A stretch of DNA of 32,841 bases from Clostridia bacterium (GTDB lineage Bacteria; Bacillota; Clostridia; TANB77; UBA1234). Positions within the stretch are counted from its first letter, which is position 1. Each line of letters begins with the position of its first letter. The notes under the pieces were generated by a model. It made no database searches and was not told the origin of the DNA. It saw only the letters and a program-made list of their open reading frames with translations. The DNA lies in NCBI GenBank assembly GCA_017469465.1, contig JAFUGH010000014.1, forward strand, positions 107,773 to 140,613, given 5' to 3'. The translations under genes were made by a program, and so were the position numbers. Below are positions 2 to 15,899 of the stretch, one piece after another.

Positions 2-490
2 CAAGCTTTGATATCAAAGTTTATTGAAAATGCAACACTTATTAAAAATAAAGATGGCTCATTTGATATAGATAAAGTTAATTTTAGAAGTAGTTTTATA
101 GAACAGATTGACAAGCTATATGATAAAGGTGTTGTAGATTTTCCAACTATGCTAGAAAGAGGTGGAAAACTTGAAGATACAAGAATTAGCGTCAATATGA
201 ATAATGAGCAACTTCAAGATTATTTAAGCAAATTGAAAAAAGAATTAGATATAAACTATATGGACTTGGGAGAATATTATTTCCACGATGATAAGATAGA
301 TGAAAATTATGACAATAAAACACAGGTTGCTAAAATTAGAGATAAGCACATTGAATTTAAGCTAAATAAAAACCAAAAAGTAATTAGAATGGTAGCAATA
401 AAACAATATAAAAACTTTTTAGTAAAGCCAGAAGGAAAAATACGAATAGGAATTGTTACCCATATTGCCTCGAAAAAACAACATAAATAA
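2..490 (+). CDS. Unknown protein, 5' end cut off by the window
   Basis: The frame is open from base 2 (reading ...Q-A-L-I-S-K-F...) to the TAA at 488-490. A TTG at base 8 could serve as a start but has no visible ribosome binding site, so I read this as the last 162 codons of a longer gene. The visible part is charged and soluble, without membrane segments, and ends in a lysine-rich tail (A-S-K-K-Q-H-K). I do not recognise a family. Its AT-rich composition matches the following genes. A short hairpin (AAGTAC at 500-505 with GTACTT at 523-528, then an A-rich run) follows the stop. Confidence 0.6.
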   Translation, partial: QALISKFIENATLIKNKDGSFDIDKVNFRSSFIEQIDKLYDKGVVDFPTMLERGGKLEDTRISVNMNNEQLQDYLSKLKKELDINYMDLGEYYFHDDKIDENYDNKTQVAKIRDKHIEFKLNKNQKVIRMVAIKQYKNFLVKPEGKIRIGIVTHIASKKQHK

Positions 491-1188: not shown

Positions 1189-2109
1189 ATGGAAGAAATT
1201 AAGCAAATGCTTATACAAGACAATATTAATGTTATCAATATAGAAAGAGTACCAATTCCGTCTGGGCAAAAGAAAGTATATTTTATTGATACAGATACTG
1301 AAAATCTAGTATTAAAAATGGTAGATGTTACACCTCAAATATTAACAGATGAACCAGAACATGAAATAAATGAAGAGCTTCAACTAGAAATAAACTTAAA
1401 ATCTTATAGAATAATTGAAGAAATAAAAATGAGTAAACATTGTAAGAACTTTCCTCAAATAAAAATAATTGATAATCAAGATTATATAAAATATATTAGG
1501 CTGAATAATAGAATATATTTAATGTATATTGAAGAAAGATTCTTAGGTGAACCATTAGAAAAATTATTACTAGACATTAATAAGGAATTTTCTATTAAGG
1601 AAATTATTGACTTTTTATTACAAATGATAAATCATATAAAAATCATGAGTAGTAATGGTTATGTACATAGAGATATTAAACCTAACAATATTATAGTTAA
1701 TAATTCAATATACTATATTATTGATGGTGGTATATGCAAAGATATAAACTCAAATATAAACTTAACTGCTACAGGAAGTGAAATAGGTACCCAAAGGTAT
1801 TTAGCACCTGAACAAGAGAAAATAGTAAAAAATTATAATTGGTCTTTTCAAACAGATCTATATCCATTAGGTATAATAGCTGTGGAGATGCTAACTGTAA
1901 AAGCAAGGAAATTTTGTACTACTGATGAAGATATAAGAGATATTCAAATTGTTAAACAGTTATGGCTTGACAAAGAACAAAGTGATATAAGTATAAAACT
2001 ATTTAAAAGGGTTATTGCAACAATACTAAATAGAATTAAGGCATTAAGATTTAATAGTATAGATGAATGTATTCAAGAATTAGAAAATTTAAGAAAGGAA
2101 GTGATATAA
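1189..2109 (+). CDS. Hanks-type Ser/Thr protein kinase-like protein, DFG changed to DGG
   Basis: A 306-residue single-domain protein with clear eukaryotic-like kinase landmarks: a VAIK-like lysine in V-L-K-M (K43), the catalytic loop H-R-D-I-K-P-N-N (160-167, catalytic D162), the metal-binding segment I-I-D-G-G (D179; DGG in place of DFG), an activation segment G-T-Q-R-Y-L-A-P-E (200-208) and the F-helix region Q-T-D-L-Y-P-L-G. The glycine-rich loop is weak. There is no transmembrane or PASTA region, unlike PrkC/Stk1 housekeeping kinases, so it is soluble. Start choice is uneasy: GGAG at 1171-1174 lies 14 bases from ATG 1189, while an out-of-frame ATG at 1178 sits only 3 bases after it and opens a 21-codon frame. 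Only 1 base separates its stop from the next gene, indicating an operon. The target is unknown. Confidence 0.85.
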   Translation: MEEIKQMLIQDNINVINIERVPIPSGQKKVYFIDTDTENLVLKMVDVTPQILTDEPEHEINEELQLEINLKSYRIIEEIKMSKHCKNFPQIKIIDNQDYIKYIRLNNRIYLMYIEERFLGEPLEKLLLDINKEFSIKEIIDFLLQMINHIKIMSSNGYVHRDIKPNNIIVNNSIYYIIDGGICKDINSNINLTATGSEIGTQRYLAPEQEKIVKNYNWSFQTDLYPLGIIAVEMLTVKARKFCTTDEDIRDIQIVKQLWLDKEQSDISIKLFKRVIATILNRIKALRFNSIDECIQELENLRKEVI

Positions 2110-2110
2110 T

Positions 2111-3301
2111 ATGATATTTATTCAACATGGCCCTAGTTGGAAGCCTAAGACAGATGAGATATTAAAAATGAATTTAGCAAAAGGCATAATATGGGATCCG
2201 AGAGAAGAAAGTATTGAAAGAATTGAAGATATTAAAATAAACAACAATGAATATAATGATATTATCAATATGGTTGACCCTAAATTCTATTATGCACAGT
2301 TTAAAACTGCAATTCCAAAAAAACTAGAAGAATTAAATTATTATCCTAAAAACATGATATTAGATAGAAATTATTTAAGAGATACTGATAAAATAAAAAA
2401 TAACATTTCTGAAATTATAAAATTTGAACAAAATTTAGGTGTAAATTATTTTATATCTCCTACTCTTTATATAGAAAGCTTTAATGAAAGATTTGTAGAT
2501 AAAATTTATGATATGTATGATTGGTTTGATGAAATGACACCAAATACTGAAAAATATGCAGCACTATTAGTTCATGAATCAGCGTTTGACAATTCTACAT
2601 ATATGAGCGAATTTATAGATGATTTTAGCAATTATATTGGAAGATATAATGGTATATATTTGATAATTGATAGAGATAATTCGTCGAATATAAGAAATTC
2701 TTTTTCTCCAAATAGATTATCAAATGTAATGCAATTTATTTATTTTATGAAACGAATGCAATTTAAAGTTATTGTAGGATATTGTGGATTGGAAAGTATC
2801 AATTATATGGCTGTAGGAGCTGATATTATTGGAACTGGTTGGTTTTATTCATTAAGAAAATTTAATAGAATCGAAAAAGGATTTGAAGAATCTTCCAGAA
2901 TGGGACATCCTAAAAAAAGATATACCTCAATTAATTTATTAAGTGAATTAAAAATAGACGAAAATATTGAAACAATACCAAATCAATTTAAAGAAGAGTT
3001 AAATAGTATTATATTTAACCAAAGACCAATTGATGAAAAAATATTAAACAATAAATATGATACTATACCTACAAATACAGATTTTATACAGTATTTTGAT
3101 ACAATAAACTTTTTATCTGATCAATTTGATGAAATAGCAAATATTCAAGAAAAAATTGAGTATTTGGAAAAGCTTATAAATAATGCAATTAAGAATATAA
3201 AAATATATAATGAAAAAATTACACTTGAACAATTAACAATAAAACATTTAGAAGATTATAAAAATGCAATTGATTCTTTTAAAAATAACAATTTTATTTA
3301 A
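2111..3301 (+). CDS. Unknown 396-aa protein, TIM-barrel-like, partner of the kinase
   Basis: This gene is almost fused to the kinase gene (1-base gap, its ribosome binding site GGAAGTGATATAAT overlapping the kinase stop). The protein shows regularly spaced hydrophobic beta strands, several ending in acidic or polar residues: K-G-I-I-W-D-P, N-M-I-L-D-R, V-N-Y-F-I-S-P, A-A-L-L-V-H-E-S, I-Y-L-I-I-D-R-D, and K-V-I-V-G-Y-C-G followed by V-G-A-D-I-I-G-T-G-W. That pattern suggests a (beta/alpha)8 barrel. The G-Y-C-G-L-E-S...G-A-D-I-I-G-T-G stretch recalls tRNA-guanine transglycosylase-like barrels, but I cannot prove homology and see no certain catalytic triad. About 60 C-terminal residues look coiled-coil. 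It ends at a hairpin shared with the convergent gene. Confidence 0.65.
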   Translation: MIFIQHGPSWKPKTDEILKMNLAKGIIWDPREESIERIEDIKINNNEYNDIINMVDPKFYYAQFKTAIPKKLEELNYYPKNMILDRNYLRDTDKIKNNISEIIKFEQNLGVNYFISPTLYIESFNERFVDKIYDMYDWFDEMTPNTEKYAALLVHESAFDNSTYMSEFIDDFSNYIGRYNGIYLIIDRDNSSNIRNSFSPNRLSNVMQFIYFMKRMQFKVIVGYCGLESINYMAVGADIIGTGWFYSLRKFNRIEKGFEESSRMGHPKKRYTSINLLSELKIDENIETIPNQFKEELNSIIFNQRPIDEKILNNKYDTIPTNTDFIQYFDTINFLSDQFDEIANIQEKIEYLEKLINNAIKNIKIYNEKITLEQLTIKHLEDYKNAIDSFKNNNFI

Positions 3302-3304
3302 ATT

Positions 3305-3335
3305 GAAAGCCAAACTACATTAAAGTTTGGCTTTC
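3305..3335. terminator. Bidirectional hairpin between convergent genes
   Basis: GAAAGCCAAACT (3305-3316) pairs perfectly over 12 bp with AGTTTGGCTTTC (3324-3335) around a 7-base loop. It lies between two convergent genes and overlaps the stop codon of the minus-strand gene. The flanks are AT-rich on both sides but have no long uninterrupted T run. Confidence 0.65.
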
Positions 3336-3989
3336 TGATATTAATAAATATTTAGCAATACTACTTATAAAAATAGGATTTACAGAATAATGTTTTAATT
3401 TATTTGGTGAGTATATATAATATTTTATTGAGTTATTTTTTATTCCAATTAATCCAATATTATATTCTGTAAAAGTTTTAAATTCGTTAATATATAACTT
3501 AGATGCGATTATATCTGGCATTACTACATAAGATTGATATGCAAAACTTTTATTTTTAATAGCTTGTAAAACAGCTTTTTTCCACTGCTTTAATTTTAAT
3601 TCATAAGCAGTAAATTTTAGGTTTGGAAATCTAAAATTATCAGAAATTATAAATTTGTTATTATCTTCTAATATAATATTTTCTTTTTTTAACGTTGATA
3701 AAATAGATAGAATATATTCTTTTGTATATCCTGTTTTATTCATAAGATATTTAATTGTATGTTGCTTTTTTTTGTGTAAGTAAGCAACTACCAAAGCTGT
3801 TGAATAATTGGATAATATTTCAGCTTGAGATTTCGTCATTACTATTTTTAAATTATCATAGTCAGTCATAACTACATCAACATTACCAAACCTTGCATTG
3901 AATTCTTCTAATATATTTTGATGTTGTTTTTTATTTGCATTTAATAATTTAACAAATTCTTTTTGCATTTGTAGTTCTGTTTCAAACAT
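3315..3989 (-). CDS. Winged-helix plus PD-(D/E)XK nuclease-like protein
   Basis: A 224-residue protein. Residues 55-115 look like a winged helix-turn-helix (I-K-Y-L-M-N-K-T-G-Y-T-K-E-Y-I-L then L-K-K-E-N-I-I-L). From 117 on, D117, E130-L-K132 and Q143 in Y-E-L-K-L-K-Q-W-K-K-A-V-L-Q-A followed by A-Y-Q-S-Y-V-V-M-P fit the D...ExK...Q pattern of small PD-(D/E)XK nuclease-like domains, which often keep the E-L-K-L...W-x-x-A-x-x-Q-A signature. Start ATG has a good ribosome binding site (GGGAGGAT). The gene converges on the kinase operon with 13 bases between stops, so it could be its antagonist or an independent cargo gene. Nuclease activity is inferred from motif only. Confidence 0.6.
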   Translation of the reverse strand: MFETELQMQKEFVKLLNANKKQHQNILEEFNARFGNVDVVMTDYDNLKIVMTKSQAEILSNYSTALVVAYLHKKKQHTIKYLMNKTGYTKEYILSILSTLKKENIILEDNNKFIISDNFRFPNLKFTAYELKLKQWKKAVLQAIKNKSFAYQSYVVMPDIIASKLYINEFKTFTEYNIGLIGIKNNSIKYYIYSPNKLKHYSVNPIFISSIAKYLLISESQTLM

Positions 3990-5108: not shown

Positions 5109-5200
5109 GGAGTGATGCCGAAGCGGTCATAACGGCATAGATTGGAAGTCTATCGTGAGATATTTGTCTCCCGTGGGTTCGAATCCCACTCACTCCGCCA
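5109..5200 (+). tRNA. tRNA-Ser (anticodon GGA)
   Basis: A 92-base class II tRNA. The acceptor stem GGAGTGA pairs with TCACTCC, followed by the discriminator base G and an encoded CCA. The anticodon arm is ATAGA-TTGGAAG-TCTAT with anticodon GGA (serine, UCC/UCU codons). A long variable arm around GTGAGATATTTGTCTCC is typical of tRNA-Ser, and the T arm is GTGGG-TTCGAAT-CCCAC. A terminator follows at once (GCTACTTT/AAAGTAGC then T7). Confidence 0.95.
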
Positions 5201-15155: not shown

Positions 15156-15899
15156 ATGGAAAACAATTTACTAGAAATTAAAGATTTATATGTATCGGCA
15201 GGAGAAAAAGATATTTTAAATGGAATTAGTATGAAAATAAAAAAAGGAGAGATTCACGTTGTAATGGGACCTAATGGTTCTGGTAAGTCAACAACCGCTA
15301 ATGCCATTTTCAATAATCCAGAGTATACTAAAAAGAGTGGAACAATTATATTTGATGGAGAAGATATTACTAACAGTAAGACAGATGAAATAGCTAGAAA
15401 AGGTGTATTTATGAGTTTCCAACTTCCAGAAGAGATTCCAGGAATTACTGTTGCTAATTTTTTGAAATATGCTAAAAACAAAATTACTGGTAAACCAGTG
15501 AAGCATTTTGCTTTTAAAGAAGAATTAAATCAAAATGTAGAAGAATTAAAAATGGATCCAGCTAATCTTGAAAGAAGTTTGAATGTTGGTTTTTCTGGTG
15601 GTGAAAAAAAGAAAAATGAAATTTTACAAATGCTAATGCTTAATCCTAAGCTTGCTATTTTAGACGAGACAGATTCAGGACTTGATGTTGATGCTATTAA
15701 AACTGTTTCTAAAGGAATTGAAATGTTTAAAAATGATGAAAATGCAGTATTAATTATTACACACAATACTAAGATTCTTCATAATTTGAAAGTTGACTAT
15801 GTGCATATATTAGTAAACGGAAAGATTGTTGAAACGGGTAATGGTGAACTAGCGCAAGAAATTGAAGAAAATGGATATGAAAAGTATAAGACAATGTAG
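15156..15899 (+). CDS. sufC: SufC, Fe-S cluster assembly ATPase
   Basis: A 247-residue soluble ABC-type ATPase of the SUF iron-sulfur cluster assembly system, working with SufB and SufD as the scaffold complex in the cytoplasm. Walker A G-P-N-G-S-G-K-S-T is at 38-46. The SufC-specific signature F-S-G-G-E-K-K-K-N-E, Walker B L-A-I-L-D-E-T-D-S-G-L-D and the H-loop I-T-H-N-T-K are all present, and D-E-T-D-S-G-L-D-V-D is diagnostic for SufC over transport ATPases. Length is normal. The start follows GGAAAGG. Downstream, sufB begins only after 361 bases because a minus-strand gene intervenes. Confidence 0.96.
   Translation: MENNLLEIKDLYVSAGEKDILNGISMKIKKGEIHVVMGPNGSGKSTTANAIFNNPEYTKKSGTIIFDGEDITNSKTDEIARKGVFMSFQLPEEIPGITVANFLKYAKNKITGKPVKHFAFKEELNQNVEELKMDPANLERSLNVGFSGGEKKKNEILQMLMLNPKLAILDETDSGLDVDAIKTVSKGIEMFKNDENAVLIITHNTKILHNLKVDYVHILVNGKIVETGNGELAQEIEENGYEKYKTM

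Follow-up and report, generated by a model that had tools for sequence, protein, structure and literature searches.

The window analysed here, the whole stretch of 32,841 nucleotides from a Clostridia bacterium, carries three neighbouring genes. They encode a soluble Ser/Thr protein kinase (gene B), a barrel protein predicted to have the TGT fold (gene C), and a putative PD-(D/E)XK nuclease (gene A). This trio is tightly co-inherited in about 18 phyla, and genes of BREX-type, RM, and Abi systems repeatedly lie next to it, making it a strong candidate for an immune system not yet described. We infer a role in defence, and the trio is probably an unrecognised anti-virus system. The reading we favour, at a little short of an even chance, is a mobile three-gene immune cassette in which a kinase gates a nuclease and the TGT-fold protein serves as the sensor. 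A preliminary description of the same DNA had proposed a two-gene module, with the kinase and a second open reading frame on the same strand and 1 base between them. Both genes lie as described (Table 1). The module is larger than proposed, since the nuclease gene is a near-constant third partner. Genes C and A converge in the window, and the hairpin between them, with a predicted energy of -16.9 kcal/mol for positions 3301-3340, is probably a two-way terminator.

Table 1. Features of the three-gene cassette and its surroundings in the window
Feature	Position	Strand	Evidence
Large serine recombinase gene, 3' end	2..490	+	Continuous with L005:8731-10263
Gene B, Ser/Thr protein kinase, 306 aa	1189..2109	+	Pfam Pkinase, catalytic residues
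Gene C, predicted TGT-fold (beta/alpha)8-barrel with helical C-terminal part, 396 aa	2111..3301	+	AlphaFold2 model, VIA-align
Predicted 12-pair hairpin where genes C and A converge, reaching into the 3' end of A	3305..3335	.	Predicted energy
Gene A, predicted PD-(D/E)XK nuclease-fold protein with inserted winged helix, 224 aa	3315..3989	-	Conserved motif, model

Single-protein searches with the window barrel returned nothing in genome contigs, viral contigs, or phages. A barrel search of the window's own genome revealed a second, very diverged copy of the trio on another contig, in the order A-kinase-barrel. The same order is found on plasmids of the haloarchaeon Natribaculum breve and of Polaromonas naphthalenivorans. 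Further relatives of the barrel came to light only with a profile made from the own-genome and plasmid copies. Scanning 85,000 species genomes with a subfamily profile yielded 61 barrel loci, plus 3 viral contigs. A phylum-wide profile search found the trio in 7 of the 397 other genomes sampled, and it occurs in 1 of 290 other genomes of the same class. The trio is therefore an accessory feature, uncommon inside any given group. The full collection holds 76 loci, from about 18 bacterial phyla and one haloarchaeal plasmid; some are near-duplicates or the same genome reached twice, and the number of independent cases is somewhat below 76. Many loci come from metagenome bins, and individual phylum labels may be wrong. 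Named strains alone cover Bacillota, Thermodesulfobacteriota, Bacteroidota, Pseudomonadota, and Halobacteria; cassette-bearing strains include Anaerospora hongkongensis, Desulfosarcina widdelii, Flagellimonas pelagia, Luteimonas aestuarii, and P. naphthalenivorans.

The loci were gathered by the barrel alone, which makes the presence of the kinase and of gene A an independent test. A kinase gene lies on the strand of the barrel in 75 of 76 loci, with a median gap of 1 base. The one locus with no visible kinase, L024, is on a contig that starts inside the barrel gene. The kinase and barrel are thus adjacent in 75/75 loci where this can be seen; they are not mostly apart, and chance pairing is excluded. 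Gene A is present in 72 of 75 loci. It is upstream on the same strand in 69, downstream in 1 (L022), and convergent in 2 (the window and L065). The loci with no gene A are two contig ends (L021 and L025) and an apparently decayed remnant (L059).

The three proteins also share a history. Once long-branch and duplicate rows are taken out, 48 loci remain; over these, the distance matrices of the three proteins show pairwise correlations of r 0.87-0.90, and 2000 row shuffles reached at most 0.26. The gene C tree mixes phyla; for instance, Ignavibacteriota sit next to Bacillota, and Lentisphaerota as well as Verrucomicrobiota are interspersed with Bacillota. Given the mirrored distances and the mixed tree, the trio therefore moves as one unit. 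Two groups of loci are alike at closer range. Cassettes from Flagellimonas, Cytophaga sp., Maribacter, and Euzebyella (L054, L056, L057, and L058) are near-identical, with the same lengths, scores, and E-values, and this sequence likeness suggests very recent transfer between genera. The barrel proteins of L072 and L073, from Ignavibacteriota and Bacillota metagenome bins, are identical, reflecting either recent transfer or a binning error.

The trio often adjoins defence genes, a setting that the preliminary description had put forward for checking. Pooled PADLOC scans of 106 neighbours recovered BrxHI, PglX, PglZ, PLD helicase, and type I and type II RM genes, with E-values down to 0. In L026 (5555-14112), the end of PglXI is the first base of A, and BrxHI begins 15 bases past C. 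In L061 (5862-13562), PglXI overlaps A by 42 bases and BrxHI follows the trio. These two loci, from two different genomes, each give the impression of a BREX-related operon into which the trio is integrated. Elsewhere gene A is preceded at 45 bases by a DUF1156 methylase and PLD helicase (L030), at 66 by HmaC (L018), at 15 by a DUF499 fragment (L032), at 51 by a type II REase (L028), and at 55 by AbiEii (L043). HsdM-HsdS in L052 and HsdR in L063 each overlap A by 3 bases. In many other loci, none of the genes adjoining the trio is recognised as a defence gene. Enrichment beside defence genes is accordingly a strong impression from individual loci, not a statistic with a background rate.

These arrangements bear on a possible role as guard of restriction systems. 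Here the trio would be a backup abortive module, triggered once the adjacent RM or BREX system is inhibited by a phage. PrrC and PARIS are thought to guard restriction systems in such a way. Insertion of the trio into RM-like operons, between PglXI and BrxHI in L026 and L061, after HsdS in L052, and after HsdR in L063, speaks for this role, as do the overlaps or gaps of a few bases between the trio and the RM-like genes. Most loci, the window included, nevertheless have no adjoining RM operon, and we consider a dedicated guard unlikely.

Gene B is the most readily recognised of the three. It matches Pfam Pkinase (PF00069) at 7.7e-21, with 75.1 bits against a curated cut-off of 31.7. The window kinase has K43, E78, H160, D162, N167, D179, and G181, all invariant in 39 aligned sequences. 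The HRD (160-162) and APE (206-208) motifs are intact and DFG reads DGG, exactly as first described. This change of Phe180 to Gly is the sole departure; the residue is Phe in 37 of the 39 sequences. Because the metal-binding Asp and the Gly of DFG are kept, we take gene B to be an active kinase, judging by its residues. A pseudokinase reading of DGG was rejected, since every catalytic residue is retained. The best PADLOC matches of the kinase are to PD-T4-6, Stk2, and MADS MAD6 (3.8e-24 to 1.1e-11), and they fall in the general kinase domain.

Gene A was matched in family libraries only through its winged helix and otherwise falls in no Pfam, NCBIfam, PADLOC, or PHROGs family. It has no NERD match in Pfam, and its best PADLOC E is 0.63. 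Its conserved positions are more informative: E5, D38, E130-x-K132, and Q142 are invariant in 58/58 aligned sequences. The residue before the catalytic Asp is Pro in 57 of the 58, the window having VD. In the alignment these residues are a PD-(D/E)XK signature, marking gene A as a putative nuclease. The AlphaFold2 model (pLDDT 87.8) runs helix, two strands, winged helix, strand, helix, strand. The predicted model thus contains the alpha-beta-beta-beta-alpha-beta core of the PD-(D/E)XK superfamily, with a winged helix (MarR/Lrp-like matches) placed in the stretch that separates the Asp from the ExK. The best structural match by VIA-align is the type IIS enzyme PaqCI (Z 11.0, 140 residues aligned, 4.3 A), followed by XisH (Z 10.2, 107 aligned, 2.6 A) and a Pyrococcus repair endonuclease (Z 9.5). 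Besides nuclease folds, the other VIA-align rows are mostly winged-helix matches. Foldseek alone gave nothing significant for gene A, with no match below E 0.02. Window gene A matches that of the N. breve cassette by BLASTP at 9e-12.

Gene C has no match in Pfam, NCBIfam, PADLOC (best E 0.77), or PHROGs. Its AlphaFold2 model, from a 58-row alignment, has a mean pLDDT of 79.6 and a pTM of 0.85. Eight strands (residues 2-5, 25-28, 52-55, 113-115, 148-155, 181-187, 219-225, and 239-242) alternate with helices. The predicted fold is thus a barrel and not another fold, as the preliminary description had read from the strand pattern. That description had also likened the barrel to base-exchange enzymes, and the structural comparison bears this out. 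By VIA-align, the best 50 structural matches listed are all TGTs (Z 17.5-19.1, about 290 residues), with archaeosine TGT 1iq8 giving Z 19.1 and 3.7 A over 290 residues. Foldseek's own ranking puts assorted other barrels on top, with weak E-values. Matches in a viral structure library were weak only, and two of them are annotated as queuine/queuosine tRNA-ribosyltransferases. None of the 58 gene C members matches PF01702 in Pfam, and a PDB profile search with gene C gave no TGT link. HMM-HMM comparison with 17 and then 33 bacterial TGTs also gave no link (E 0.12 against the 33). As the sequence routes gave nothing, the relation of gene C to TGTs is one of predicted fold only.

TGTs have zinc ligands CxCxxC...H, a catalytic Asp-Ser-Gly motif, and an Asp nucleophile located where strand 8 ends. 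The zinc site is absent from gene C, and the whole window protein has one Cys. In a by-eye alignment guided by secondary structure, the position expected to hold this Asp is an A/G column. With the zinc site absent and the nucleophile Asp seemingly so, the earlier suggestion of a barrel enzyme that actively modifies nucleotides or nucleic acids is not supported. An invariant D56-P57 does stand directly after strand 3 of gene C, coinciding in a manual alignment with the position of the catalytic Asp-Ser-Gly motif. The C-terminal face of the barrel is enriched in conserved residues, defined as the same in 85% or more of the rows (20/56 versus 25/194 positions, p = 2e-4). This placement on the model argues for a working pocket.

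Only a distant barrel relative in L024, with gene A directly after it (L024:2-1942), was seen to carry a CxCxxC...H pattern resembling the zinc site of TGTs. It has no family match and no relative in 9 other genomes of its order. This single sequence is consistent with descent of gene C from a zinc-bearing TGT-like ancestor. The window barrel is diverged, 14-21% identical to the others and 23% to the own-genome copy, and it has lost several residues conserved in other members (Q58, Q228, N247). With its divergence, lost residues, and convergent gene A, the window copy may have changed in function.

The TGT fold raises the possibility of a modification-restriction pair under kinase control. Gene C would exchange or remove a base on DNA or tRNA, with A then cutting DNA in response to the mark, much like Dpd systems. 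The fold, the clustering of conserved residues at the catalytic face, and the D56-P57 position all agree with such a pair. The missing zinc ligands, the unmatched PF01702 model, and the A/G at the nucleophile column as aligned by eye do not. Moreover, no preQ0-synthesis or DpdB/DpdC gene was recognised among the neighbour matches listed (pooled PADLOC, 106 neighbours) or among recurrent neighbour clusters. We regard this pair as improbable, to about the same degree as the guard role. Marginally less probable again is a kinase-controlled TGT-fold enzyme with a rebuilt active site, which would alter a base of the invader or the host for the nuclease to act on. If that were true, nucleobase chemistry would be switched on by protein phosphorylation in many bacterial phyla and in archaea.

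In the favoured immune cassette, the proposed order would run from sensor C through relay B to effector A. These roles are assigned by analogy with a known system (PMC10853773). Gene C would bind a ligand (nucleic acid, base, or nucleotide) that marks either infection or the failure of a neighbouring restriction system, the likely pocket lying at the C-terminal ends of the barrel strands. It would then relay its state to the kinase with which it is always paired. Kinase B would phosphorylate A, or C as the preliminary description had also considered, and so release the nuclease. The winged helix of A may position the nuclease on DNA, where it would cut phage DNA or, as a suicidal fallback, the DNA of the cell itself, and infection would stop. 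Which protein acts as sensor, in which direction phosphorylation runs, and what A cuts are our guess. If the trio is an immune system, it is a kinase-nuclease module on separate chains, so that point mutants could readily probe each role. The TGT fold would also gain a role beyond tRNA and DNA 7-deazaguanine chemistry.

Several known systems resemble parts of the trio. PglW of type 2 BREX likewise combines a PD-(D/E)XK-class nuclease, a Ser/Thr kinase, and a winged helix in a defence setting (PMC12839542, PMC10853773). However, PglW is a single large chain with NERD nuclease, pseudokinase, kinase, and wHTHs, whereas the trio consists of three separate small proteins, has its winged helix inside the predicted nuclease fold, and always includes the TGT-fold barrel. 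The PglW model matches two stretches of gene B at 25.7 bits, against a cut-off of 990. TGT homologues have been recruited into defence operons in the TGT/GNAT-bearing BREX-related capture (BRC) systems (PMC12839542). Those contain HerA/FtsK, PglZ, STAND NTPase, and DUF6079 and, as described, have no Ser/Thr kinase component, whereas the trio does. Gene C shares with TGTs (PF01702, including archaeosine TGT and DpdA) the overall predicted fold and an invariant Asp after strand 3, but it differs from TGT/DpdA in having no detectable sequence similarity, no zinc site, no nucleophile Asp seen, and other gene partners. The stand-alone defence kinases PD-T4-6 and Stk2, and MADS MAD6, are like gene B by PADLOC match. 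Because the barrel and the nuclease have no PADLOC model, PD-T4-6, Stk2, and MADS as modelled there do not include these partners. We found no published account of the trio in the open-access literature. The parts of the trio are of known kinds, and their combination and the barrel family appear undescribed.

Some copies lie close to mobile-element genes. A serine recombinase is present in 10 loci, the window included, a tyrosine-integrase cluster in 4, and a relaxase-like cluster in 3. The own-genome second copy is on an element of about 11 kb (L004:4443-15449) that also encodes a serine recombinase and a relaxase-like protein. This element sits inside murA, whose flanking parts (L004:3545-4443 and 15449-15808) share CAGGGGG at both junctions. 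Gene A could serve mobile-element biology, which we count against the immune reading. A module for the stability or transfer of such elements (toxin-antitoxin-like or recombinase-regulating) in place of immunity would fit these recombinases and the insertion in murA, but it is the least probable reading, as no one recombinase type is common to all loci, many have none, and several lie inside or beside restriction and BREX-like operons instead.

Most of the mobile-element surroundings of the window copy lie just beyond the window, with only the recombinase end (2-490) inside it. The serine recombinase gene beside this copy is split: an N-terminal open reading frame (L005:8400-8783) is separate, and the frame is broken upstream of the window. 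The sequence suggests that the element may no longer be mobile, or that the assembly may be in error. A tRNA-Ser (GGA) gene lies at window positions 5109-5200, 1.1 kb beyond the trio, and upstream of the recombinase there is a tRNA-Gly gene (L005:7749-7822). A search for attachment repeats found none, and no long direct repeats flank the window copy. In a comparison with a congener, only a sirtuin gene was common and no empty site was identifiable. The trio region (1189-3989) has 23% G+C, against 31% in the remainder of the window after 4200, in keeping with a foreign origin. By eye, each of two integrated elements has, near the trio, a gene (L004:9594-10922 and L009:6559-7701) whose protein contains a similar Cys-rich motif, CxxCGR.F...C.
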